Assembly (NCBI RefSeq): GCF_032118995.1
Contig: NC_092659.1
Location: 9,961,177-10,025,176 of the forward strand
DNA from: Asterias amurensis
Lineage: Eukaryota > Echinodermata > Asteroidea > Forcipulatida > Asteriidae
Length of the DNA stretch: 64,000 nucleotides
Reading direction: 5' to 3'
This document shows, piece after piece, positions 1,179-52,800 of the stretch (positions are counted from its first letter, which is position 1; the number at the start of each line of letters is the position of its first letter). Both the position numbers and the translations under genes were made by a program. A model generated the notes under the pieces. That model saw only the letters and a program-made list of their open reading frames with translations, was not told the DNA's origin and made no database searches.

Positions 1179-1561
1179 TTAAAGACACCGGACACCTTTG
1201 GTAATTGTCAAAGACCAGTCTTCTCACTTAGTGTATCTCAACATACTCATAAAAGAACAAACCTGTGAAAATTTGAACTCCATAAGTCGTCCAAGTTGTG
1301 AGATAATAATGAAAGAAAAAACACCCTTGTCACACAAAGTTTTGAGCATTCAGATACTTGATTTCGAGACCTCAAAATCTAATTGAGGTCTCAAAATCAA
1401 ATTCAGGGAAAATTACTTCTTTCTCGAAAACTATGATACTTCAGAGGGAGCCGTTTCTCACAATGTTTTATACTATCAAAAGCTCCCCGTTACTTGTTAC
1501 CAAGTAAGGTTTTATGCTAATAATAATTTTGATTAATTACTAATAGTGTCCACTGCCTTTA
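1179..1561 (+). mobile_element. MITE-A copy
   Basis: The ends are TTAAAGACACCGGACAC and GTGTCCACTGCCTTTAA. The internal hairpin ATTTCGAGACCTCA...TGAGGTCTCAAAAT, typical of the family, is present. Plus orientation is defined as the one reading GTCAAAGACCAGTCTTCTC after the left end. Confidence 0.9.
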
Positions 1562-7200: not shown

Positions 7201-10200
7201 TGAATTATTAAACCTAATCCTTCGTACCATGTAATAATGAAAGTGCCTTTGGCACAATAGACTGAGCAAGTCTCGCGCGTAGTGGTGCGAGAAAACCACG
7301 ACAAATGAACAACTTTTGTTAATGAAATCATTTCTTTGCTATAAATTATTCTTAATGCCAAATCTGAACAACAATAAAACCTATTACAGCTTGTTCAAAT
7401 ATACAACTAATCAATTGTAGTCTATGTATAGAAAGTACAAAAGTAAAACTCTGGGACAAGGATGTTTATTTGATCTTAATTTTTTTGAATTCCCTGTTGT
7501 AAATCTATGCCCGAATGAGAAACTACTAAAAGCTGTTGTGTACGCGGATGACGATGGTCGCGAGAGCGTTATCTTAACAAGAGAAAGCCGACGCCTAAAG
7601 GGCCAATGAAAAGGCTTTTCACCCCTTGCGACCAAAACAAGCGTCTGCGTAAGTTTTGTGATCTGAGTTGGGCACAAACGCTTAATTTTTTTTCAAGTAA
7701 CCTGACCCGAGGTCCAGTTTATACATTCTTTGTTATTTTGTTGAACTTATTTTTACTTTTATACATGTTGTTAATAAGTGTTACATTTTCAACAATATAT
7801 GTAATTTGTTTTGGTCATAAAGTACGTTAAAGTAAAATAATGGACAAAACAAAATCTCCCCAACTCCATAAGGTTGGGACCACAATGGTCCCGGAAGTTC
7901 AAATACGCGCGAAACTTGCACGGTCCATATGCTGCCAATCCAGCCAGGAACACCAATTTTTCAGTTAGTGTTATGCCTTCCCCCCAAAAAAATAAAATTA
8001 AATACAGGTAGTACAAAAATTAACAAGAGCGAGAGTGCCCCCTTGTGATAACATGTATACTTTATACCTTGAACATGTACAGGGTTTGGCAATTTAAGTA
8101 TGAACATTACCTCGTACATGTACGAGGTTGGTGATTTCGCAAATGGACCTAGTACATTTTTTAGTTTTGCACTGAAAGAATTAAAGGGAAGAGAAAATAA
8201 GATCCAATTTACCTGAGAGTGTTTCTGCTGGCTCCTCTTCCTGAACCAATGAAAACAAGCAAAGAAAATATCAATAAAAAAATATAAAAAAAAACAAGTA
8301 TCAAAAACAATGGTTAAAGCCATTATACACTTTCGGTAAACAGTATTGTCCAAGTCCCACACTTCGTGTATCACAACTTATATATAAAATAACAATCCTG
8401 TGGAAATTTAGGCTCAATCGGACATCGGAGTCGGGAGAAAATAACGGGAAAACCCACTCCTGTTTTTGCGCGTTTCGCCGTGTCATGACATGTGTTTATA
8501 ACAAATCCGTAATTCTCGTTAACGAGAATTTATATTGTTTTACCGCTTTCTCAAAAAGTAAAGCATTTCATGGACTAATATTTCAAGAGAAGTCTTTCAC
8601 CATTACCTTCTGTAAACCCTGTAAATTATTTGTAAATCTGTGAACTTTTTAAATTTTTTCTGTACCGAAAGGGTCCAATGGCTTTAATGGAACAAAAGTA
8701 ATACAATAGACCGATCCATTCAGCTCCACCCAATGCGTATTGACCAATCACAACGCAACGAAGGTCCGAAAAATAAGGTCCGACATGCGTGCGGGTATCT
8801 TGGCGCCCGCGGCAGAATTGTGCAGAAAGGCATTCGAGAGCCCCACGTGTTCTTGCTCACACGTGCGTTATGGGCGGAGGCTACTGGATCGGTCTATTGA
8901 GTAAAAAGGTACCATACTACATAGGATTTATTTGGAAGCATGCAAAATGAGACTTTAAATATAGATATTAAACGTCTTCAAGCAAACTTGAATCCTTGAT
9001 TCTCCTTGGTAAATCCATAGCGAAAAGAGTGTGATACAAACCTACATTGCACGTCTTATAAAACTATGTTTCAATGGGAGACTTTTTTTAGACGGTCCTT
9101 TTTCACAGTAGTGTGCGTGCTCAGACCTAGGTGCACAATACTGAGCATGCGCGCACGCTCAGAGCCGCAAAAAAGGACCGTTTTGTCTGCTGACACCAGC
9201 ATCTCAAAAGTATCTTAAACACTCTACACATTGCGCTGTTTCAAGCTACACATGAAGGTGTGCCTGCATCCCATAATCGGATGCAGAAGTGCTATATTTG
9301 TTTTATATTCTACTTGTGCTTGTATGATAATAATTGTCTCACAATGGCTCATGAAAACCAGAGATAATTTAATATCATGAGGAAATTTGATTTTGTAAGA
9401 ACGTCAAGAAAGGAGTAAAACACCTACATTAAGTTTGAAGGAGGATGCTGCAGTCTTGGAGGCATTTGGAGGTCTATAAACAGCTGGCTTTGCATCAGCC
9501 TGCTTAGCGGATTGTTGCTGAGCAATAACTGGCTTAGATGGGAAGGTGCCAGCAGGAAATGGTTTCCATACAACCTCCCATAATTCCTTCTCACGAGGGA
9601 CAGAGTATTCACTGAATAACTTGCCTGAGTAGTGCCACATCTTGTAGCTGGGAAATAATAAAAGACAGTTTAATAATACATGTCAACAAACCTATTCTAA
9701 CTATCAAATGTTGGCAATTTGATTACTCCACCAAATTGATCCATACAAAAACATTGTTTGTCGTTTTCACCATTTGAGAGGGCACTGTTGATGTTAATAT
9801 TTCACATGTAACACATCATAACAATATTGACTGCTTTGGCTTCAAGGTAATCCCGGAGCAGTCCATTTTCAGAGAGAAAATGAAATGACCCGGGGGGTCT
9901 AGTTTGAACTATAGCACAATTTAAAAGCAACCACTATTGCTCTGATAGATTCACAGATTGTTAAAGACACTGGACACTATTGGTAATTGTCAAAGGCCAT
10001 GTCTCCTCACTTGGTGTATCTCAACATATGCATAAAATAACAAACCTGTGAAAATTTGAGCTCATTCAGTCGTCGAAGTTGTGAGATAATAATGAAGAAA
10101 AAAACCACCCTTGTCACACAGAATTGTGTTTTTCAGATGCTTGATTTCGAGACCTCAAATTCTAAATCTGAAGTCTCGAAATCAAATTCATGGAAAATTA

Positions 10201-13200: not shown

Positions 13201-16200
13201 TTTTTCCCCCGTCTTTATTTTGGCAAACTCCTAAGTAAACATTTTCCAGGAGTTATTTCATTCGCCATGTTTTACGTTCGTCACCAAACGGCGATACCAT
13301 ATAATGCACATTAATTAGGTATAAACATTTTAAAATGCAATGAGCAATTTAGAAACAGGGAGGAAAAAGAAACGACTGGAGCCAGAAGGGTTGCCTAAAA
13401 GAAGCACAGTTCCTGTCTAGAGGTTCTCCTCTCCAGCTGATCCTAAAGAGAACAGCAATTTTGGCCTGTTTGATCTAAAATTTTTGGTCTATATTGGCCA
13501 AAATTTCCATTCCAGGAAAACAATAAAAAAATGTTGCAGTCCAGTCAGTGAGCAAACAAAATTTGCTGATTGCTGCATCCAAATTACATCCATTAGACTG
13601 GTGCCTTATCAGCAAAGGCTTTGCTTAAAGACAGTGGACACTATTGGTAATTGTCAAAGACTAGCGTTCACAGTTGGTGTATCTCAACATATGCATAAAA
13701 TAACAAACATGTGAAAATTTGAGCTCAATTGGTCATCAAAGTTGCGAGATAATAATGAAAGAAAAATAACTTGTCACACAAAGTTGTGTGCGTTTAGATG
13801 GTTGATTTCGAGACCTCAAGTTCTAAACTTGAGGTCTCGAAATCAAATTCGTTGAAAATTACTTTTTTCTCGAAAACTATGGCACTTCAGAGGGAGCCGT
13901 TTCTCATAATGTTTTATACCATCAACCTCTCCCCATTACTCGTCACCAAGAAAGGTTTTATGCCAATAATTATTTTGAGTAATTACCAATAGTGTCCACT
14001 GCCTTTAAATAAACTTGCTTTTGCCCACCATTCAGACGGACAACATAATTTTATTTTAGGATGACCAGGGCTCTATTCCACACACACTATAAGATGAAAT
14101 AGAAATGTCTCACAATTTTAACTGCTAGGTTAAAAGTGTGACGTCACAATAATAATCACTATGGCAATACTGAAAACTTGATCATCTAAATATTATAATA
14201 ATGAATCTATGTGAAATCAAGTAATAATCAGCATATAATTTCTTAAGCTCAACATGTGTTGTTCATTGTAACCACATCAAAAGGATACACCCATACACAA
14301 CACAAAAATCTGAGGAGTTAGGGTTCCAGTCCACACTGTAGATGGGTCCAGTTTTAGCTGTAAAATAAATAATCATTCACTAATAAGTATTGACCTAAAC
14401 ACAGTGTCTAAAACTTGTTTATTAATAACAATAACATCAAGGTACTGAAGGCACTGAGTATATACAAACTTTCAGAGAGATAAGGGTTTACAAGGTGCTA
14501 CGGCACATTAAGCAGCCACAGCCAGGAACACCGGGCTAACCCCTTCTCTTTTCGATAAGTATACTGGGTTCTTTATCATGCGTTACACAACACATGGGAC
14601 CAATGGCTTTACATCCCATCCAAAGGACGAAACAATGGTTTAGTGTCTTGCTTAAGGACACAAGTGTCGTGGCTGGGGATTCGAACCCACACTCTGCTGA
14701 TCAAAAACCAAATAAGTAAACAAAATTCCAACATCCATTATCAATTCTTAAGACTTATACATTATAATATTCTTTGTTTTTACCCTTACACTTACATGTG
14801 TGTAAGCACTGCATATTCAGTACTTTTCTGAGTTCTTGAAGAAAAATCACAAACCTATTACCTAGGTGGGACCACAACGAACTAATAGATTTAACACGCC
14901 TGTGATTTTTTCACAGAACTCAAAAAAAGGACCAAATATACAGTAAATACACACATAGGTAAAAACCCCAAATAAAATTCTTTATCCCGATTCAAACTCA
15001 ACACATGAATAAAACCAATATAGGATTTGGACGGCCTCTAGTTGGAAAGACATCTGCTCTAGAATTGCAACGGTCGTGAGTTTGAATAACACACGAGTAA
15101 TATGCCTACCCAGGAAAGTACTGAACATACAGTGCTGACACATGTCGGTTTAAAGGTAAACACAACGATGCAAATTTAACATCCATTTATAAAGTGACAG
15201 TTCGAATACCATGCAATTTCCCCCCAATAAAAACTAACCACTATAATGACAGTTTCCCACAATGTAATAACTTTCAGCATGGTGGTTTGCTAAATAAAAC
15301 TAGCAAAAAAAAAACCCCAGCATATCCAAACTTTGAGCACCATTCTCCGCTGCCGAATCTGGTTTCCTTATCTGCACAATGGACAGCTCAATCTTCAGAT
15401 TGTGCAATTACATTAGGTTTTCAGGCTAAAAACCGAGCGCCTTAAAAAGAAGAAAACCAAGAGGTGTTTGAGCTCCTAATTATTGACATACAACATCAAA
15501 GTCACTGGACACTATTGGTAATTACTCAAAATAATTGTTAGCATCAAACCTTACTTGGTATCGAGTAATGGGAGAGGTCAATAGTATAAACATTGTGAGT
15601 AGCTCCCTCTGAAGTGACATAGTTTTCGAGAAAGAAGTAACTTTCCATGAATTTGATTACAAGACTGCGGAATTAGAGTTTGAAGTGTCTCGAAATCATG
15701 CATACACCTTCGTGTGACAAGGGTGTTTTTTCTTTCAAAGTTATCTCGCAACTTCGACAACCAATTGAGTTCAAATTTCACAGGTTTGTTATTTTATGCA
15801 TATGTTGAGATGCACCAAGTGAGAAGACTGGTCTTTGACAATTACCAATAGTGTCCAGTGTCTTTAACCAACAAATAGACTACTCACACAATGCTACTGT
15901 ACAACCCTGTCCACTGGTGTCCAAATAGTGTAACGCTTGCTCTCCATAATATGACTTGCCTGTCTTGTCAACATCAACACTTGCAATGGCAAGAAGAGCA
16001 GTTCCTGCCAAAAATAACAAGAACAAAACCAAAGATTTTAGAAGAAACATCATCACACAAGCTTCTGCGTCCCATATCCAAGGAGTCTCACTTGCAACGC
16101 ACAAAAGTTCAAATTTCAGAACATTATCTCGCGACAAACAGCATGCTTGAGTTTAGAATGTAATTTTTGCACTTTCAGAATGCAGCGCTTGATGCATTGA

Positions 16201-24628: not shown

Positions 24629-25295
24629 CTTGCCAAATGATCAATCATGTGCGCGCGCACACGCTCTCTCAGATGATGTGACGTATGCGAAGTATTACGA
24701 CATCACGCGCTTGCGTGCTCGTCGCATGCATGTGTGCGTGCGTAATTAAAAAGGGGGGGGGGGTTACAGGTTCGGGACTTTTTCTTTTTCTGTCGGCCCT
24801 GGAGATCGAGAAAGGATGGATGGTACATTTAAAATGCCACTGATTGAAAAGCACGAGTACGACAGTAGTAGCACTACATACAGAAAAAGAAAACAAAATC
24901 GTTCAGCACAGCGCGCGCCCTGCAACGTGATGGGACATGTTTGTTTACATACAATCTATGGATTGTGTTTGTGAGGCTTGAAGCCCCTCCCCCTGAATGT
25001 ATTTCCCTCTCCATGCTGAAGCGTAGGCCTAAAGTGCACATTTTTAAGCACTATGAGGAAAACTGTTAAAAGCAAATAACTTATTTTATACTTTATTTAT
25101 ATTTTGCTTTAGCTTACTCGACACGAGCAAGTTTTTGTTGAGGCATGATATACCTCCTCTATGGTTGATTTTGAGGCATGAGGCAAGAGAGGAAACAAAA
25201 ATCAGATTCGATGAATATGCATGATAAACTAATGTAGGTCAAAAGTCGCGCGCGCAGCTAGCGATGTTGTCGAGATTTTGTGGTGAACGTTAAAA
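24629..25295. promoter_or_regulatory. Divergent promoter region between EIF2A and RNF168
   Basis: The two genes start 667 bp apart on opposite strands, with no recognisable mobile element between them, which suggests shared promoter DNA. CRE-like motifs TGACGTA (24669-24675) and ACATCACGCG (about 24699) and several GCGC-rich runs lie on the EIF2A side. A poly-G tract near 24751-24763 breaks it up. No TATA box is evident near either start. Transcription start sites cannot be placed from the sequence alone. Confidence 0.5.
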
Positions 25296-28200
25296 ATGGC
25301 GTCGAGTTGTGATAAAAAAAACCTCGAAGGGGAAATGCAGCCACAGTCCCATTCCAACTTTTCAGATCTTCGACTGTCCGACTGCAAATGTCCGATTTGC
25401 ATGAGCATCCTTATTGAGCCTGTTCGAATGCCTTGCAATCATGAACTATGCATGCCGTGTTTTCGTCAGAATGTCGAGGAAGCAAACTTTACTTGTCCGA
25501 TGTGTCGTCTGCGGATAAGTAACTGGGCCAGGCGCTGTGCCAGAGAAAACAAACTTGTTGATGAACGAAGATGGAGGCAAATAAGGGAGGCGTTCCCCGC
25601 CCAGTGTCAGCGGAGACTGGCAGGGGAGGACGAAGAAGAAGAAGAGGAAGAAGTGTTGGGTAACTTTTATAAAGCTGTATTTTATTGTTGTATTTTATTC
25701 AATGATAAACTTACCACCCTCGACAAAGTTGTTTGGCCCAGCCAGCTGGGCCACCAGAAAAAAGAGTGGCATAAAATAAAGACTTAGGGTTATGCAAACT
25801 TCAATGTGTTGAGCAGACAGGCTTTTATTTATCTGCTCTTGCTCATAATATCCCAGAGACCTTCAAGCTAACTTATTGGATGGACAACAACCAGCGGTAG
25901 AGAATCAAGGGTTTTAACTTTTGGTTATCACAAGAACTACAACATGTACCATATCATGTGTACACTAGCACTATACATGCTAGTAGGGGGGCTGGTCATC
26001 TCGCCACCTAGCAAGCTCGCCACCAACAAAGTCGCCCCCTGCAAAGTCGCCCCCTAACCGGCTCGCCCCGAGTTGTTACAAAGTCGCCCCCTGACAATGT
26101 CGCCCCCAAACAATGTCGCCCCCTAGCAAAGTCGCCCACTGACAATGTCGCCCCCAGCCAATGTCGCCCCCTAGCAAAGTCGCCCCAGAAAATAATTTAG
26201 GGTTAGGGTTAGGGTTAGGGTTAGGGTTTATGTAGGGTTAGGGTTAGGGTTTATGTAGGGTTAGGGTTAGGGTTAGGGTTAGGGTTAGGGTTAGGGTTAG
26301 GGTTAGGGTTAGCACATTACTTCAGATGGAAATTTTTCTGAAAATGTTTTAACTATATTTTTTTACCATTTGTAGCCTTAATTATTTTCCGAACAACATC
26401 TGGGGGCGACTTTGCTAGGGGCGACATTGGCTGGGGGCGACATTGTCAGGGGGCGACTTTGCTAGGGGGCGACATTGTTTGGGGGCGAGATTGCCAGGGG
26501 GCGACTTTGTTGGTGGCAAACTTGTCAGGTGGCGAGATGACCAGCATTCGCTAGTAGTAGTAGTAGTACTAGTAGAAGGCTGCATAACAGAAACAATTAT
26601 CGATGAACAATTACAAACAATGTTTATAGTATGATGATGCTGCATAGTGCAGTGGCCTATATTTGTAACATTGAAAAACATTGTATAAAGTTGAGGCTGG
26701 CCATTTTTGGCATTGGCGAACAAGGAGTTTGCATTAATGATTAACATGATTAAGTCCACATTAACGCAAAACTGGTTATATATCCAACTTGTAGTGTTTT
26801 CAGACCAGGCCAGGGTCTAGCACAGAACAAAATACATCAGAATCTATAATTATCATTTACTTGTTTCCCCCCAGATATTATACCAGGAAAAAGGATTTGT
26901 GAACCAGGAGCAATAAAGCAAGAGTACAAAGAAGCTGTTGAGAAGGTATGCATGCGTATTGACAAAGCAACATCAAAACAACTTTTACTGAGAGCATTTC
27001 TACCTCCATGGTATTCTTGTCTGCATTCTTGTAGGGACCACGTGACTATCAATGCTAAATTTGTTAAAGATTGATCTTCAAACAGTACCAAAGTGTTTGC
27101 TACTGTACGAGACACTATGGTAACAGTGAGAAGTCATCTTCAGGTGAAACTTAAGTGTTTCCTGAAATCAAGCCAAGCTTACTAACCCTAACATTAGCGT
27201 TTCGTCAAGGTCTTCATTGCTTGGACAGCTTTGTAGAGCTGCCATCTGAAGCGATTGAAGGTTGGAAAAGGCCCTTATGGCTGCGCCACTGCACTCGACT
27301 GTTCCAGTCACTTCACTGTTCCAGTCACTCTGCTGTCCAAGCCACGAAAGGCCTTGACGAAAAGCTAGGGTTACATGGAGCCTATAGATTCGCTGTCTTT
27401 TATGCTGGGCCCAATTTCATAGCGCTGCTTAGCACAAAAAATTGCTTAGCATGAAATTTCTCCCTTGATAAAAACAGGAATGGCAACCAAATTTCCACGT
27501 GATTTTCAGGACAAGCAAACAACTGCTGAATACCAGTAAGAAGCAACGTACAACAAATAGAAATTTGGTTGGCAATCCTGTTTTTATCATGGAAGAAATT
27601 TCATGCGAAGCAAATGTTTGTGCTTAGCAGCTCTATGAAATTGGGCCCAGGTGTGGAAGGAGAGTCTTCTGTATAATTATTTATATCCTACAAGTGATAA
27701 ATCACAAGAAAAACTTATTTAGGTTTCAACAACTTCTGTACTTGTATATAACTGCATTTATTATTAAAAACCTACTCGGATGTAGTCAGACTATGGCATT
27801 TGTGACAACTTATGTTAAAATGAAAACTAATTTAAAAAGTAACAATAATCATTATTTTAATGTGGCTGCCATTCATATCATTTGGGCTTTTATAATTCAA
27901 ACTTTGGGAGGTAGTGCTTTTTTATAAAGATATAACTTTATGTTAAAGGCACTCTTTTATTGGTCATTGTCAACGACCAGTCTTCTCACTTGGTGTATCT
28001 CAGCATATGCATAAAATAACTGTAGAGACACGGGAAGGAGCTCCGGTCCTCTAATGAATAAAGGACGAGCACTCAATCCTGTCAACGACGCCATTTGTAG
28101 AGACGTAGACAGTACAAAAATATCAACAGTATAAATAGGCCTTAAAAGTACAATGGCGAAAACTCAATACTGTTTACAACACCATTTGTAGAGACACGGG

Positions 28201-31200
28201 AAGGAGCTCCGGTCCTCTAATGAATAAAGGACGAGCATTCGCCAAAATACAGTCAATGATAAATAAATGCCAGTCAATGACAGCTAAAATATATCAAATA
28301 AACTTCTCATGTATAGGTTTAATGGTAACCCATAGCAAACAAAACAAAAAGTTACAACACTACAGTAGATACATTGCATACATGTCATTACACAGTGCAC
28401 AGTAAAGGTTCACAAAAAGGTCAAACATGTGGCTTCCATGCTACACACACGGACGCACTGCACACGATCTATAAATAATCCGATCCAAACAAGACCCTAA
28501 AAATCCCAGTATATTCAGGTATAAATGAGAGCCAAAACACAAAATAATACTCCCAGATAGCTCTATAAACTTATCCCTCCCAGATAAATGGGTTTTGGAG
28601 CATGGCCAGAGCCATGCTCCCTATAAAAATAGAGAGAAATCCAGACCAATTAAAATGTGCTCTTCCAAGAACGAAGCTATTGAAAAAGAGAGTGAATGTC
28701 ATGTGACATCACCAAAAATAAACTTTTTAGAAGTTCAACAATGAGGGCGCACTTGGCGGATCATCACATAACAAACCTGTGAAAATTTGAGCTCAATTGG
28801 ACTTCGAAGTTGCGAGAGAATAATAGAAGAAAAAATACCCCTGTCACACGAAGTTGTGTGCTTTCAGATGCTTGAAATCAAGTTCAAATATTTTAGGGGA
28901 AAATTGCTTCTTTCTCGAAATCGACGTTGATTCATAGGGAGCCGTTTCTCACAATGTTTTATACTATCAACGGCTCTCCAGTGCAAGACCAATAGTGTCC
29001 AGTGCCTTTAAATGAAGGAAAGAGAAATGGCCAGAATGTTGTTTAATAATAGTATGTTGTTTACTCTCGCTCCTGTAGCTGAAATGTGAGCGCCAGCAGA
29101 TGGCGGAGATTGAGATACAGAAGAGTGAAGAATACATCGCCTGGTTACAGAGGGAGGAAGTGCGACTGTATGAAGAGCAACAGAATAAGTTGGCGCAGCA
29201 GCAGCAACTTGACGAGGAACTTGCTCGGAAGATGTCCACAGGAGTGGCAAGCCCAATAGAGGTTTGGCTTTATCTCATTGTTTTTAGGAAGCTTTCGATT
29301 TGGGACGGTAGGGCAGGATGGAAAGTAACGGAACGCGACGGTCCGGGAGCGTTATGTTAACATTAGACCTCCCAACATGCCAACATGTTTGATCAATTTT
29401 TGCTTACTTAAAAAAATTGTTTACCCAGTTTAGGCTTTCACAATTGTATTCTTAATATTGCTGACGTTTGATAAAGCCATATGCATTGCAAGTCTCACAC
29501 CAAGATCGTTCCCGGATTTATGATCCAAAGTGTAAGAAGGAAAAACCCAGTAAATTTCACTAAGTATATCTTTCCTGATGAAATTCTTTGATTGTTTTTT
29601 TAATTTTTTTAATTGTAGGAGATTCGTACCCGCACACTGCAAGAGCAAACATTAAAGGACGAAGAGTATGCAAGGAAGCTACAAAAGGAAGCCTTAAAGG
29701 TATATTCTAAAATTAGATAGTTCCCACTTGATTCAAATCAGCCATCTTTACGGGCAATTTTGAACACACAGCCATGCGTTTTGCACGAGAATGGCTAGCA
29801 GCATGCGTACATTTTACAAAACTCGTTGCCTGGTTGCGTTAATAAACTCAGCGCTTGACGCGCCTTCAAGCCAGAATGCAACTTGCCCGTAAAACATGGC
29901 GTCTATTGCAACTCATCTATACATAAAACTATCTTGATCCAAGTTGCTGCTTTCTCACAGAATATAACTTATTCTTTTCAAATGCTTTTTTTTTAACATG
30001 TCTTAAACTTGATTAAAATAGCAATCAAAATAATTAATAGTTCTATATGGAGCTGAATCCAGATTTGGACGATTACAAATGTATAAATATTTGTATTTTA
30101 TTGGCAGATATCTGAGGCAGTGTCTTCTCCAAATACCACCACCATTATCTCCAAGAAATTTTCTCGTAACTCTTCAAGTAATGGCAATACCAGTACCTCC
30201 TCTTCCATGAAGTGCCTTCGAATTGATAAGTTCCTCTCTCCATGCGCTAAGCAGGCATCCCCTCAGATACAACATACTTCCAAAGCATCTTCATCAAAAT
30301 CTTTGAACAATAATTCTTCCCCAGATTTGAGCATGTTGTCATCCTCAAGTCACAGGGCGTCTAGTAGTTCATCTGTTTCAAGCATTAGTTTAGATTTTGA
30401 TAAACCGTCTACATCTAAAGGAGTTACTAAGGAACCTGTGTTGTTTGGCGACCCGCCATGGGGTGATAGGAGCTCAAGTGAATGTGTTCTTGAAATTGTT
30501 GCGGATCCAACGAGCCCCACTGTCTCTTACCCAAGCCCAAGTATTGATGAAAGCCTCAAGAGTTTGAAAGATTGTTTACTTAATCCAGAATATGTCTTAG
30601 ATACCCAGGGGATTCAGAAAGACGAGAGGGATAATAAGAAAGAGAGTGCCTTTGAAAGTGTTAAGATTAAATCCATGGAAGCAGAAGGCGATGATTCTAA
30701 GACCTTGAGGAAGCGATCAGACAGTATGACCAGCACAGACAGCATCTCCCCAGAACTCAACCACTTTAGGCCCATTGATATCTCACCACGGACATCACAC
30801 CGTAGACTTGCGAATGGGCGACGGGAGTCACCAAAAGTTGTACATACCACTCCTCGGAATCTAACCAATCTATCCCAAGATGAGCCCATCGGAGACACAA
30901 GCTTACCTCCTCTAGTCAAGGCAAAGTTTGACAGTCTACTCAAGGAGAAGAAGAAGAAATTAGGGGATTCTTCCAAGAGCACCATGACTGGTAAAGGTTT
31001 CCAAGGAAGAACTAGCATGTTAATGAGACAGGAACTTAACAGACGACTCCATCACAAACCATCGGGAAACAGGCATACATTACTGAATTCAGCAACCCAG
31101 AGGCAACTCACTAAACCAGAAAAGTCTCCTCTTGCAGAAGGCAGAGTTGGAGGGAAGACAAGTAACAAACACGAATCCAAACAGAACGTTTCTCTAACAA

Positions 31201-32345
31201 GAAAAAACTATTTCCATAAAGGTTCAAGAAATAACTTAAAAGAAGCAGATAGAGATTCTGATTCTGATGATGTGATCATGACAGACTTGGATGAAGAGAG
31301 CCAGAAAATAAGTGCCACAGAAAACAACTTAAATATGGAAGAAGTGAATGCGAGAAAAAGGGAAAGTCCCGTTCAGCTTGAAATTCCAGTGCAACGATTG
31401 GAAATGAGTTCCAGGGAGAAACGAAAGAGTTGTAGCCCTCAACTGCAAAGAAAGAAACTAAGACTTGAAGATGATAGTTCGCTTAAGAATCTGAATGAAA
31501 CCAAGGGTGGCAGTGGAGACCCTGAGAATACTTCTGATCCAAAGAAAAGTCCTGGAAAGGTTTATCAGATGAAGATGAACCAGCCGAAGCCAAAACAATC
31601 CACCATTAAGAAGTTATTCAGCAGTAAGGACATGGAACCAGAACAAAATCATTCAGTTTCCCCAAAGAGATGGAAAGTGCCGTCTAGAAGCAGTCAGAGT
31701 CCACCCTTGCCCTCCCTGGTGCCAAGCCCTCATCACAATAAACTCAAAACAAACACGAAGGAAACATCAGTATCCGACGAAAGTCGCTCAGAAAACTGCC
31801 AAGAAAATATCTCCAGGTTCGACAGACACAAAGTTGGTATCCTAACCCCTGACAAAGGCATCTTGATGGACGCTAAACAAGATTCCAATCAGGAGAAGAA
31901 TGGCCACTTGGTGAAATCAGTTGCTCCCATCGATTCCGAAGGAAAAAACACTCATTCCCCAGAAACATTCAAGACAAACTCAAGGTATTCAACCGCAAAA
32001 TCTAAATCCAAACTGAAAGATCCTCCCTCACCTCATGGCAACGAACGGCAGAAAACTTCAAGTCCGAAGGTCCTTCAGAAGACGCCATCCAAGACGCGTC
32101 GGAACACTATCTGGAAGTACATGGAGTTAGTCAGTGAGGAAGAGAGAAGAATACAACAGGAAGAGGAAGATAGAAAGCTTGCGTTGAAACTCCAGGAGGA
32201 ATTTGACAAACAAGAAAGACGACAGATGTCCATGGTGGATAGATCACAGGGTGCAGAATCTGCGTATGAGCTGAGGGACAGACGCAGGGCTTCAGCAAAG
32301 AAAGTAACGGTAGATGTAGATAGTGATGACGATATATTTGATTGA
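25296..32345 (+). CDS. RNF168: RING-type E3 ubiquitin ligase, RNF168 family, complete, 5 exons
   Basis: Exons 25296-25659, 26875-26945, 29079-29261, 29619-29699 and 30108-32345 join in phase to 978 aa, against 571 in human RNF168 and about 708 in RNF169. The C3HC4 RING is C32, C35, C47, H49, C52, C55, C67, C70, with spacing identical to human RNF168, and the basic residue matching human R57 is kept (R73). An acidic run follows, then the LRM1-like exon 2, a UMI-like SEEYIAWLQ (161-169), MIU1 (DEELARKM, 190-197), a second MIU-like helix in exon 4 (DEEYARKL, 220-227) and RIDKFLSP, resembling human DIQKYLTP. The C-terminus has MIU2 (DRKLALKL, 921-928) and an LRM2-like YELRDRR (953-959). In vertebrates RNF168 ubiquitinates H2A K13/K15 at double-strand breaks downstream of RNF8. 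The middle, 240-900, is Ser/Lys-rich and looks disordered. The start has good context (AAAAATGGCG). RNF168 and RNF169 may descend from one such gene, so RNF168/169-like is the safest label. Confidence 0.92.
25987..26549. mobile_element. Foldback element built of tandem units around a telomeric core, 8-bp TSD
   Basis: It is flanked by GCTAGTAG at 25979-25986 and 26550-26557. Each arm is a row of imperfect units like CAAAGTCGCCCCCTAG, inverted in the right arm. The tips share CTGGTCATCTCGCC. The centre is the TTAGGG array. It lies in RNF168 intron 1. Inverted repeats made of tandem units recall Drosophila Foldback/Galileo elements, but no transposase is present. Confidence 0.8.
26201..26313 (+). 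repeat. Interstitial telomeric TTAGGG array
   Basis: Roughly 17 TTAGGG units, interrupted twice by TTTATG-type variants (near 26227 and 26250), read on the plus strand. They occupy the centre of the foldback element. Confidence 0.95.
27409..27650. mobile_element. Foldback family C copy in RNF168 intron 2
   Basis: GGGCCCAATTTCATAGCGCT left, GCTCTATGAAATTGGGCCC right. The inner arms pair through AAAACAGGAATGGCAACCAA and its inverse. Confidence 0.88.
27946..29010 (+). mobile_element. MITE-A copy split by a later insertion
   Basis: The left part 27946-28020 ends ATAAAATAAC. The right part resumes at 28768 with ATAACAAACCTGTGAAAATT and runs to GTGTCCAGTGCCTTTAAA. The sequence between (28021-28767) is foreign to the family. 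Exon 3 of RNF168 starts 69 bp after it. Confidence 0.88.
28021..28767. mobile_element. 747-bp unclassified insertion with ATAAC duplication
   Basis: ATAAC flanks both sides (28016-28020, 28768-28772). The first about 50 bases (TGTAGAGACACGGGAAGGAG) recur at 28188-28237. No open frame is recognisable. A 5-bp duplication would fit an LTR-type or other DDE integration, but the ends do not settle the class. Confidence 0.6.
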
Positions 32346-46800: not shown

Positions 46801-49800
46801 CTACCATGTCACATGTACCATTTGTGACTGGTATCCTGCTCATTTCTGCTTAGCAGAGAGTCGTTTAGCAATATTCTCTGCTTAAGCAACTCTATGAAAT
46901 AGGGTCCAGATTGAGTAAGACTGCTTGTTTATAAAGTTTATATACCAACATCCCACATAGTTTTCTTGCATTTGAGTTTTTACTCAGCCAAAATGCAATG
47001 CCTCGCTGAGTGAGGGGCATACCAACATCCCACATACCATGAGTTTGGTGCTCTTATCTGTTGGTGAGTTGGCCGTGCTGTGTGTGAAAGGAAAACGAGG
47101 AACGTCTTGCACCAAGAATAACTACACACATGATGCATATCCGAAACCTGTCTCAGTCATAAATATAAAACACACGTACAGAGCTCAAGGATGTCAGGAA
47201 ACCTTTCTTACGTTACTACGCCTTTTAACGCAGAAGGCATTTATAAATGGGAATAAAAGAGTACCAACTCTTTCTTAAACTGCCTTTTAAAACCTTGCAA
47301 AGTCTTGGCCATGCAATAAAGGTCTTCACCTTCGGCTCAGGCCTTTAGTCACACAGCCACGATCCTGCCGGTTTTTAAACGGCCGTTTAAGAACTCGTCG
47401 CTACCCTTTTATTCCCTTGTTATTAATATCATTATTATTATAACAATTTAAAAGTAGATTAAATATACCTGTATGGTCTTTGCTTGCAGTCATCTGATTG
47501 GCCGTTCATTGTCCAACCAAGTGTTTGTATGAAGAGTTTGTTTATCATGTCACCATGGACAATCAGATTACCACGGCAACTGGAAAACAAAAATTATACA
47601 TTAAATCACAGAACCTTTATATCACATGTTAATACACAGCCACCTGAAGTCTCTGACAAGTCTCGAACTTTTTATCAGAATGTATAAACACATCAAGCTA
47701 CACTTTGAGATAAAAGTTTATTTGGTCTTTCATTCATAAATACCTAAGACAGTTTATCCATTCTGGTTGGTCGAGAGGGCATCACGAGGGGGTGTTTGAA
47801 CGGATGATACAGCACCAGTAAAAAGTGTTGAAACATGGGCGTGACACGCGAGCTTGCATCTATGCTTATAAGACAATTTATTCATTCCTATTGGTCGAGA
47901 GCAACGGCTGAAACAGTTGTGCCACATCACGCGATACGCGCGACGTGCACAGCGTCTCCTTATAAGGAGTTGTTACCTAAATGCCTTACAATTTCATAGC
48001 TGGAGAGGTGTTGTGTTGAAAGAAATCATTGAACAATTCTAATTTTTGCATTTATTTTACTTTTTGACAAAAAGTGTTGATGTTTTTGACTGAAAAGGTA
48101 TTTATGAATGGGAATCAATGTGTATTGAATCGGTTTTCAACTAATGGTTTAAACCCGCCGAGGCCTGGTTCTTGATAATTTTACTGAAAGGAAGTCTCTG
48201 TAAAGTTATCAAGAACCAGGCCTCGGCGGGTTTAAACCACTAGTTGAAAACCTCTTCACCACACATTGATCCAGGCCTCTGCGCGAGTTTAAACCACTAG
48301 TTGAAAATTTCTTCACCACACATTGATTCCCTTATTTGTTCTTTCATAAAATTATTACCTTGATATAAGAGCTGACAATATGCTGAATGCTTCAGTGTGA
48401 ATTGTAGAGAGAGAACCAGCTAGCAGAGTCCATTGCAATGACACCTTTTTAGACTTTAACAAAACATACAACAATATAAGAGAACAGTAGTTTGTGAATT
48501 CTTCACAAGTTATTTCATTTCATTGAATGCAAGTTTCCCAGTCTCCAATTGAATAGCTTAGTGCGCTAAATATATGTTGCACAGGCTGTATACTCCCCAG
48601 GGAGCTGAGATGGTGAAGGAATGATTTAAGGCCCAGTGACCAGGGGTAATAATGTTGAAGTGCCATGAGCATCACTGCGTGACGGACATGAGCGCTATAT
48701 AAGAAGCCACGGTTATTGTTATTAAGTGCTTAGTGTCTCCGTTGCTGTACAGTTCAACTAACTACAAATTTGCTTCTCTTCACCAAATATTTGTTGTAAA
48801 ACCAAACACTAAACGGACCGTCCATATCTTTGGACCCTGATATGAAACATTTAATGAACTAAATCTAGTTTAGTATTTTGGGTTTTCTTCTCCCGTCTAA
48901 GATAGGGAGTTGGCTTACCTAGGGTATTGTCTATCCGATCATAACTTAAAAGAGAATTCACCCCGTGTTCCAGCTAATGACACCATCAAAAGACCCCTTT
49001 TCAATTCACTTCAGACGCCCTTTGCTGGAGCCTGCTTAAAGACACTGGACACTTTTGGTAATTGTCAAAGACCAGTCTTCTCACTTGGTGCATCTCAACC
49101 ATTTGCACAAAATAACAGGCCTGTGAAAGTTTGAACTCAATTGATCGTCGAAGTTGCAAGAGAATAATGGAAGAAAAAACGCCCTTGTTGCACAAGTTGT
49201 GTGCTTTCAGATGCTTGATTTCGAGACCTCACAATCGAATTCCGAGGTCTCAAAATCAAATTCAAACATTTTAGTGAGAAATTACTAGTCACCCAGGTCT
49301 ATCATGATGGGAACTTGCTTCATGAAAATTCTTGTGCGAAAGGGCTCAAAGTCATGCTCTGCTCTGGAAGCAAATATTCAGTGCTTAGCAGAAGTAGTGA
49401 ATTATGGGCTGAAAGACAGTGGACATTATTGGTAATTGTCAAAGACCAGTCTTCTCACTTGGTATATCTCAACATGTGCATGAAATAACAAACCTGTACA
49501 GATTTGAGCTCAACTGGTCGTCGAAGTTACGAGATAATAATGAAAGAAAAAACACCCTTGTCACACGAAGTTGTGTGCGTTTAGATGGTTGATTTCGAGG
49601 TCTCGAAATCAAATTCGTGGAAAATTACTTCTTTTTCAAAACAACTTACTTCAGAGGGAGCTGTTTCTCACAATGTTTTATACTATCAACAGCTCTCCAT
49701 TGCTTGTTACCAAGTCAGGTTTTATGCTAATAATTATTTTGAGTAATTACCAATAGTGTCCACTGCCTTTAAGTCTTGTGCCCTAAGATCTCATTATTTG

Positions 49801-52800
49801 TAGGTACAGTATACAATAATTCCTTAATAGTATACTTACTCTATTGATATTTGTGGTGATATTTTCATATTGAATTACTTTGTTTCTTTGTTCTTTATAT
49901 TAGAGTAAAATTGTTTGATTTCTAAAAGAAAACTGTTTACAGAAAGTTTTGAGATTTTTTGGATCGTTCAAATACTTACAAGCATCTTGCCATTCAAGGC
50001 AAGCACTCTGTAGCACAAGGACAAAACAGGATTGACTGGAATTTTCACAATTTCTGGAAATTCAGCTCTGCAAGACAAGAAAAATGCAAATAATACATCA
50101 AAGAGAGAGTTTGAGCTACACGCTAGCCGGTTTATACTGACCAAAACAAACTGTTACTTTCTTGAAAAATTCTTCAAAAACACTATTATAGGTTTTCTCG
50201 GTCAATTTCCGAAAATGAGCAGCCAATTTAACCATCAACCTAATCAATTTCGCGCGAAATTGAATGCCGCTGAAAAAGGATCAGGCGATTTCATTTTCTG
50301 ATGTACTTTTGCGTCAGTCGATTTAACAAAATAATCATTCAATTAACAATTCAACAAAGCGGCTTTCAATTTAGCCCAGTACTTCTTGAAGCGTATGTTT
50401 AGTCATTCAAATTCATTTTCGGGCAGTCACTTCTGGAATTTGCACAATCTAAAAAACGCTTGGTTGAACTTTTGTTTCCTTAAGATTTGTAAAGGCATAA
50501 AGGCATAAATACGGTTCACGTATTGGCACTGGAGTCATTTTGCCGATGTACTTCAAAGATAAGCTTTCGCTATAGTTGTACACACTGTTTTTTTTCTCAA
50601 CATGGCAGCTCTTGGTCGCTACACTAGAGTAGCCCAGGTAGATCGAGAGAGGTTGATTGATGCATTCAAAGGAAATGAACAAGACTACATTGAGCTTGCA
50701 GTTAACTTGAACATCAACAAGTCTACAGCAAGATCAATCATTGCAACATATTTGAGGAACGGAAGGCGAGAGATGCTGGTATAGGGTATTTGGTTACAAT
50801 TATATACACTTACCCTATTTCTGAGTCTGGGCAGAATTAAGCTTCATTTTGGCGGCGCTGGTCAGCTTTGACTTCATTCAAATTAATAAGATCTCACAAA
50901 TACAATTACTTAACTACTATTTATATTTAACTATTAAGAGATATTACTTTATACCCTAATGGTGTCCTCCAGCTGAAAGGTTGCTGTATAGGAGTAGTGT
51001 ACTACCAATTCAGTTTCCAGTCAGCCTTTGGACAACCACAATAAATGAACCTAAATACTACGACTATATAAGTTAGAGAGATACAACCTTTCTGTACCAA
51101 AAGCTGGAGAAGAGTGAGGGTGGTTTATTGCCTGCATTTGCTTTTATATGGCTATGTACACTAAGGAAAAAGATTAGGGCCTGCTCAATAGGCGTAAACA
51201 AAGGAACTTATAATAGGCTTTTATACTACACTGGGGGTTTTGGAGTTCATTGTTCACCATTTACAGCTGACATTCCCAGATGGTCATATACAATAGGGGA
51301 ATGGTAAAAGTCTCCAGTGCGAGCACTAAAAGCTAACACATGCTTGGCAGCTGTTAATGGAATTCACTACACTGGCAAGGGGAGGAGCAACCCACAGCAA
51401 GATGGATGATGACATGCGAAACCATCTTTTAAGCTAATACCGTCTTGACACTTCAAAAAGCGAAGGCTAGGTTGAGTGAACATCTACCAGAGAAGCTGCA
51501 GGTTTCTACTGCTACCATAGCCAGGGCCTTGGATGGGATGATGTTTTACACTAAAACTAGTGGAGGACGTCCCTGATGCAAGGAATTCTCCTGAAGTTCT
51601 TGATCAACGCGTCCAGTATGGTGAATGGTTCCTGCAGCATGGTGTTCTGGCACATCTAGTCTTCATTGATGAGACAGGCTACAACATCTGGACTAGACGC
51701 TCCCAAGGTAGAGCTCCACGAGGGATCGCTGCCAGACGAGTTGTCGACAGACAACGAGGGAGAAACTGCAATGTCTCCTTCGCTATTTCTAGTGAAGCAG
51801 GCTCGGTGCACCACAGAATTGCATTCGAAACTGTGACGCGAGAGAGATTCGAGGAGTTTCTTGCAGACACAATTCAACAGTGTGATGCAGTTTTCCCAAA
51901 CGACGAGCCAATTTACCTCATCTATGACAATGCTAGCCCTCATGTGCGAGCCAGACTCCCTGAAGGTGCCAACCCAATGATTCAGCTGAAGCGCCTCCCT
52001 CCCAGGCCTACTCCTCGTCCCTGAACAGCACAGAGATGGCACACTCTGCATTCAAGGCTGCAGTAAAACGCATCCGCGGGTTGCCTGAGTGGCAGCAACG
52101 TGTAGGAGACAGGCAGGCTGCCCAGGAAGCAGGATTGAACATGCAGCAGTGGAGATGCGATCTCCTACAACAAGCAGCCATTCAGAGTGTGGATGTCATC
52201 ACCCAAGTAAAGTGCATGCAGTGGTACAACCACACACAAACATAAATGCCAAGATGTCTGGCATGCCAACAGATTGACGGTTGATAAAGAAATGTCACAA
52301 ACTCTTAAAGAAAACAGTAAAAATTAGAGAACATTCAAGAAACCCCCACTCAACCCCCCCCCCCACAAAAAAAGGAGAAGAAGAAAACCTCATGGGCCCC
52401 ATCTTATATCCCCTGGACACATGAACAAAGAAAGTGAGGTTTACCTGAATTAAAGTTGCCCAGTGCAGTTTAACAGTTTATTCGTGTTTCTTTAATCGTA
52501 CTAATTTTAACTTTCATTTAACGAAATCGAGTGCCTCTTTACGAAATTGAAAATGATTAAATCAGCAAAATCTCTAGTCGAACTCGCTTTGCTAAATTGA
52601 ATGATGTTTGTGTGTCATGAAAAAGAATGAGTGTGCTAGGAACTTGAATGCCTTAGAACAAAATTGAATGACCAAATTCTGAATTTGAAACGCAGTAAAA
52701 ACCGGAGAGGCAAAATAGCTTTAATTCGAGCGCCTGAAAATGAAATTGGCTGCTCATTTGCCGAAATCGACCGAGAAAACCTATACTAAAAAAAGATATG

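Follow-up and report, generated by a model that had tools for sequence, protein, structure and literature searches.

A TTAGGG-bearing family of foldback-type elements in the sea star Asterias amurensis

Short blocks of telomere repeat inside chromosomes are usually read as the scars of break repair or chromosome fusion, and the locus described here raises the question of whether such a block can instead be part of a mobile element. The window, the whole 64,000-nucleotide stretch of Asterias amurensis DNA that was analyzed, contains an element for which an earlier note, made from the letters alone, had reported a perfect 8-bp duplication bracketing inverted arms of short tandem units, with about 17 TTAGGG units at the center. 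That note favored a mobile element that carries telomere sequence over a simple break-repair insertion, and suggested looking elsewhere in the genome for copies with the same tips, 8-bp duplications, a TTAGGG core, and a full-length version with a transposase.

The anatomy of the element is as had been described (Table 1). The duplication GCTAGTAG is exact on both sides (8/8), and the arms are complementary over long runs, with a best pair of 93 nt at 97% (26078-26170 and 26418-26510) and an outer pair at 92% (25991-26041 and 26495-26545). Arm units of the type CAAWGTCGCCCCC are spaced mostly 16 bp apart, and at up to one mismatch TCGCCCCC is found 12 times in the left arm and 8 times in the right arm, which is shorter than in other copies (compare L103, below). 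The figure of about 17 TTAGGG units was a fair one, with 15 exact units in the core and ~19.7 when variants are included. As single-stranded DNA the element is predicted to fold at -193.3 kcal/mol, whereas 100 shuffled versions average -81.5 (sd 5.1; z = -22). Neither of the two 14-base tips is found anywhere else in the window, and the units recur there only as scattered single near-matches, never in a second row.

Table 1. Positions of the element, its parts and neighboring features in the window
Feature	Position	Strand	Remark
RING-finger ORF, RNF168-like, just upstream of the element	25287..25787	+	Pfam RING; best PDB match RNF168, E 6e-29
Target site duplication, left copy, GCTAGTAG	25979..25986	.	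8 bp
Whole element	25987..26549	+	563 bp, oriented G-tip to T-tip
G-tip GGGGGCTGGTCATCTCGCCACC	25987..26008	+	each of 47/47 genome pairs has one G-type and one T-type end
Left arm, outer domain, tandem ~16-bp units of GTCGCCCCC type	25987..26190	+	
TTAGGG array	26197..26312	+	15 exact units plus TTTATG/TAGGG variants
Unique core / T-side inner segment	26310..26398	+	~89 bp
Right arm, inverted tandem units	26399..26549	-	shorter than in other copies
T-tip GAATGCTGGTCATCTCGCC (reverse strand)	26531..26549	-	
Target site duplication, right copy, GCTAGTAG	26550..26557	.	8 bp
Interspersed repeat, examples	15713-15870, 9961-10118, 49408-49565, 1179-1334		15 more places in the window

Searches of the whole genome (491,506,623 bases in 23 contigs) place the element in a dispersed family, for which all copy numbers are lower bounds, as only the best candidates of each search were scored. 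The complete element recovered at least 196 matches (best 40 of 328 candidates scored) and its unique core segment at least 40 (best 40 of 67 candidates scored, all 40 matching). Copies with the same tips do occur, with 128 + 113 matches to the tip CTGGTCATCTCGCC at up to one mismatch and 13 + 22 for a reversed-pattern control. By their outermost bases the ends fall into two kinds, a G-tip (GGGGGCTGGTCAT, GGGGG-type, some GGAGG) and a T-tip (GAATGCTGGTCAT, GAATG-type), searches for which returned 92 and 101 matches, with 5 in each control. Among the 192 tips listed, 94 form 47 facing pairs (up to 12 kb apart) and 98 are unpaired. All 47 pairs consist of one tip of each kind, and the ends are therefore fixed and asymmetric. 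At least 47 copies of the family are thus defined by paired tips, and 45 of these constitute the copy analysis (C17:17703900, which is locus L109 and was read later, and C19:15369431, a search match only, were left out).

The copies are closely related. Same-side arms compared among 39 of the 45 copies (400 of 741 pairs sampled; L076 comparable over 22 nt only) are 95.7% alike on the left and 95.1% alike on the right, and left and right arms are 92.4% alike within a copy and 92.1% alike between copies. Homogenization of the arms within copies, which was considered, is not seen in these values, and the two arms had diverged by the time of the common ancestor. Several loci have features of their own. 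At L088 (C7:20003656-20006658), five copies form a tandem array in which they are separated by the same ~19-bp flank, possibly an incipient satellite of the kind described for Tetris. The 1663-bp copy L103 (C16:5687367-5689028) has within its core a further insertion that bears its own inverted ends and a putative decayed Tc1-type transposase. Family tips and fragments cluster near a contig end at C2:124000-135100, including a T-arm duplicated ~1 kb apart (L053, L054), and a diverged copy recovered through its right array junction lies 36 kb from a contig end (L136). Unpaired tips were considered as possible ends of autonomous copies, and for six (L137-L142) a stretch of 1.4-1.5 kb was inspected together with its ORFs. 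One is a chance tip (L137), and the other five have an arm on one side, or only its outer 57 bp (L142).

An 8-bp duplication like that of the window element recurs in most of the copies. In the frame fixed by the tips, an 8-bp duplication is perfect in 23 of 45 copies and matches at seven or more of the eight positions in 32, compared to 3 of 2565 shifted-flank controls. The 13 copies without a clean 8-bp duplication in the expected frame include three in which it is displaced by a base or is 9 bp long (L070, L080, and L097) and four in the L088 tandem array with shared flanks, and the rest have none that is clean; perfect 9-bp matches occur only at L070 and L097. The 32 duplicated targets are biased in composition: 21 have A at position 7, 18 have C at position 8, and 15 have T at position 2. 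One insertion can also be compared to its target. Joining the flanks of copy L082 around one GTTGAGAT gives a sequence that aligns, across the join, to a repeat dispersed in the window (TGTGACAAGGGTG...CAGTGTCTTTAA; 19 partial or full matches there), and the four repeat copies aligned to the joined flanks have no gap at the junction (e.g., 15713-15870, 91% over 159 bp). These uninterrupted repeat copies are a related empty site for L082 with a single target copy.

A TTAGGG array is present in 41 of the 45 copies, in all 41 with TTAGGG on the strand of the G-tip, and ranges from 2 to 28 exact units. The four copies without an array are L070, L074, L094, and L105; the single TTAGGG of L074 lies in an arm. 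Both main junctions, AATARTTAAGG/G and TTAG/A[CT]CTTCCACAAG (the slash marks the join), are found with up to two mismatches in 31 of the 41 arrays, a count that includes left variants such as TTAGGA, and three more copies differ from them by small changes only (L088_5784, L098, and L099). The right junction (TTAGGG)3TTAGACCTTCCACAA occurs 45 times in the genome at up to three mismatches, with none in the control. In the remaining seven of the 41 the array is joined elsewhere in the core (L072, L078, L085, L088_4165, L093, L101, and the window copy). L072, L078, and L085 have a longer G-side core, which runs on past TTAAGG before the array begins, and in the window copy the array joins at TTAG/CACATT and ACCTTCCACAAG, present in most copies, is absent. 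Such odd junctions fit deletions ending in the array, while the local expansion of variant units (TTGGGG in L092 and TTTATG in the window copy) points to slippage. L099 and L104 have the same ~37-bp insert (AGACGATAGCCGGACG...) inside the array, which is a mark of a sub-lineage or a remnant of an older core. The repeat itself is that of the chromosome ends: of the 20 contig ends inspected, 12 consist of TTAGGG arrays, among them L117 and L131 with variant units, 7 have no array, and 1 reads N, which identifies TTAGGG as the telomere repeat of this species.

Taken together, the other copies, the 8-bp duplications, the TTAGGG cores, and the empty site sustain the mobile-element reading of the earlier note, and the duplications, shared array, and empty site identify a transposon family with a heritable telomeric core as opposed to a one-off break repair. 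A preference for subtelomeric targets was considered and dropped, since just one of 40 loci lies within 100 kb of a contig end and a limit of 500 kb likewise gives one, with no enrichment against a background of 17 contigs of known length (the 40 loci are the window copy and the 45 right-junction sites, without the four extra C7 tandem copies and those on C19 and C22).

The origin of the array within the family can be read in more than one way. It is quite conceivable, though we lean against it, that the array was never derived from a telomere and is a microsatellite that slippage built up from a core motif resembling TTAGGG (TTAAGG or TTAGG). The T-side inner arm has AATAATTAAGG at the place homologous to the start of the array on the G-side, and array length varies widely between copies that agree to about 95% in their same-side arms, both of which would suit such growth; the unit is exactly the telomere unit of the species, however, and the copies with the longer core carry the array away from TTAAGG. 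The same three copies weaken another candidate that was considered for the single origin of the array, telomerase primed on the TTAAGG of the arm, as their core continues past that motif.

The 335-bp core of L085 has 48 genome matches at about 33 places, and several of these lie just inside T-tips and read inward (C16:8912203, C3:17658392, C11:443383, and C9:5926518), for which reason the segment is read as a putative inner domain of the inverted arms; one match, near a G-tip at C2:6862764, reads outward and does not fit. Sister elements (L074, L109, L110, and L112) combine the family tips and units with other cores that have no TTAGGG array. GGATG replaces GAATG at one of their ends, and the second tip is poor in L110 and absent within 2 kb in L112. 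Two candidate giant elements were checked. At C3:17630467-17659022, a G-tip faces a T-tip over a span of 28,556 bp, and the pair is flanked by perfect 8-bp copies of CATCTGAC, which makes this a giant member of the family or one inflated by nested insertions; of two 350-bp samples from its interior, one contains part of a reverse transcriptase (Pfam RVT_1, E 2.9e-5, below the Pfam cut-off). The second candidate, on C2 (right tip in L057), was rejected, as the expected left tip is absent from L146 (161 bases).

The full-length version with a transposase that the earlier note had suggested looking for was not found among the genome matches: no copy has an intact transposase between both tips, and no autonomous copy is proven. 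Genome hits to four transposase groups were checked (18 hAT, PF05699; 6 Merlin, PF12762; 12 MULE; 23 P-type, PF21787), and none lies inside the C3 giant. Only one of these, a MULE at C8:11188826, has a listed tip or an inner-domain match at a distance of 15 kb or less; the nearest hAT, P-type (THAP), and Merlin (IS1595-type) hits are 46, 50, and 170 kb from a listed tip, respectively. Merlin was rejected as a candidate, with no family tip in the 2.1 kb around one copy and a search for the ends of that copy itself finding none. The C8 locus (L115, about 11.188-11.191 Mb) contains a MULE-type gene in pieces on the minus strand (L115:3108-6057), of which one exon matches PF10551 (E 2.7e-9) and the other four pieces have no Pfam match. 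The exon is flanked by inner-domain copies (2239-2716) and a T-arm (8585-8886), but a 38-bp relic of a T-tip, apparently intronic, lies within the gene region, and the gene is therefore not neatly framed. No left arm is present, the T-arm continues into a different repeat, and relatives of the exon at other loci are 38-53% identical, with none within 50 kb of a listed tip. If evenly spread, the 20 MULE loci would be expected to fall within 7 kb of the 33 inner-domain places about 0.02 times; because repeats cluster, the closeness is a lead and not proof. The L115 gene, with family fragments beside it, is the best candidate for the transposase of the family.

It is unlikely, in our estimation, that the transposase belongs to the hAT superfamily rather than to MULE. 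The 8-bp duplication would suit a hAT enzyme, as would the target bias, which looks more like that of hAT than of MULE elements: hAT duplications follow the pattern nTnnnnAn, and T at position 2 and A at position 7 occur together in 9 of the 32 targets (P about 7e-4). Conversely, hAT-type tips have the form YARNG while those of the family start with G, and the distance to the nearest hAT hit has been given above.

In another account, the core of the hairpin breaks repeatedly and telomeric repeats are added anew, such that the arrays are partly independent. This is improbable. The seven copies with the array at other positions in the core would be expected under repeated addition, but one ancestral array followed by deletions ending in the array gives the same pattern, both main junctions are common to 31 of the 41 arrays and the orientation to all of them, and the variant units in L092 and the window copy show local slippage. 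An extended version, to which we give just as little credence, would have a giant ~28-kb parent give rise to short hairpins whose cores repeatedly gain or re-anchor TTAGGG through hairpin breakage and telomerase-assisted healing; if true, a DNA transposon and the telomere machinery would jointly seed interstitial telomeres across the chromosomes.

The least tenable account, an interstitial telomeric sequence left by double-strand-break repair (through telomerase or a telomeric fragment) with the flanking inverted units incidental, can draw on the core being the species' own telomere repeat and on junctions with short matches to TTAGGG (TTAAGG and TTAG) like those described for break-repair sequences (PMC2246262), but it is hardly credible when dozens of sites have tips, arms, array, and 8-bp duplication in common and an empty site shows the target only once. 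Break repair is refuted for the dispersed copies, though it may account for how the array first came into the element.

The family is thus very probably a foldback-type, non-autonomous, cut-and-paste DNA transposon that is moved by a trans-acting transposase and carries a passenger TTAGGG array inherited from one ancestral element. A transposase made elsewhere would recognize the asymmetric tips, GGGGGCTGGTCAT and GAATGCTGGTCAT, and the repeated 16-bp arm units would probably serve as a row of transposase binding sites, by analogy with Galileo. The element would be excised and then inserted with an 8-bp staggered cut. The array would have entered or arisen in the core of one ancestral element and been copied with it to dozens of sites, its length and junctions later changed by slippage and by deletions ending in the array. 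The weakest step in this scheme is the assignment of the transposase to the MULE (Mutator) type.

The surroundings of the window copy deserve a brief comment. The element probably sits in an intron of the RNF168-like gene, with the ORF at 30087-32345, which has no Pfam match, assumed to be a further exon of the same gene. RNF168 is a DNA-damage ubiquitin ligase, and the pairing of such a gene with a TTAGGG-bearing element is probably a matter of chance. Another ORF in the window, at 51542-52024, resembles a Tc1/mariner-type transposase.

Some of the telomere-like DNA inside the chromosomes of this species was spread by a transposon and not by break repair, in one orientation, and the family offers a concrete, countable case of transposon-carried telomeric repeats, which a 2022 review lists as a proposed source of internal telomere repeats (PMC9693754). 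Caution is warranted in using TTAGGG spots as markers of chromosome fusion in this lineage. Additionally, the assembled genome offers dozens of closely related internal telomere blocks whose effects (DNA damage, recombination, and the binding of telomere proteins) could be followed one copy at a time. Resequencing data from 80 individuals of the species are available (PMC11757944).

With long inverted arms made of tandem sub-repeats, dispersed copies with target duplications, and an empty site, the family has the features of the foldback class. The likeness to Foldback and Galileo proposed in the earlier note stands for the anatomy, but not for the 8-bp duplication, the P-type transposase (the nearest hit is 50 kb from any listed tip), or a proven transposase copy. 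Galileo makes a 7-bp target duplication. Drosophila Foldback (FB) has tandem units in its inverted arms, as here, and a 9-bp duplication, whereas the sea star family has 8 bp (32 of 45 copies at seven or more of eight). A possible MULE transposase would be shared with MULE-type foldbacks such as Tm1, and we know of no telomeric core in either FB or these elements. Nearest in design and host are the TU elements of sea urchins described in the 1980s by Liebermann, Hoffman-Liebermann and colleagues, which reportedly have long inverted repeats with outer ~15-bp tandem units, an inner domain, and an 8-bp duplication. The echinoderm host and all three of the latter features would be held in common, and the differences are the host (sea star as opposed to sea urchin) and the TTAGGG core found here. 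This suggests that foldbacks of the reported TU design occur in sea stars as well as in sea urchins, with a member of 28.6 kb.

A sea urchin foldback (Lieberman et al. 1983) is among the works cited in the description of Tetris from Drosophila virilis, a non-autonomous foldback with tandem repeats in its terminal inverted repeats (TIRs), 8-10 bp duplications, and a tendency to form satellites, for which no autonomous copy was found (PMC4079207). The sea star family is likewise a non-autonomous foldback with tandem-repeat arms and a satellite tendency (compare the five-copy L088), though the TIRs of Tetris reach 1.7 kb with 220-bp units and the accessible part of its description mentions no telomeric middle domain (PMC4079207). 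Galileo, of the P superfamily, has long, internally repetitive TIRs with further transposase binding sites in their tandem repeats (PMC3688188). The short interstitial telomeric sequences of mammals are described as TTAGGG blocks with short matches at their borders that were inserted at breaks (PMC2246262). A break-repair block of that kind is a single insertion without transposon ends or target duplication, whereas here the block has been copied inside a transposon with both. Among the best-matching titles on foldbacks, transposons, and internal telomere repeats, drawn mostly from outside the subscription literature, no foldback family with a telomeric core was found.
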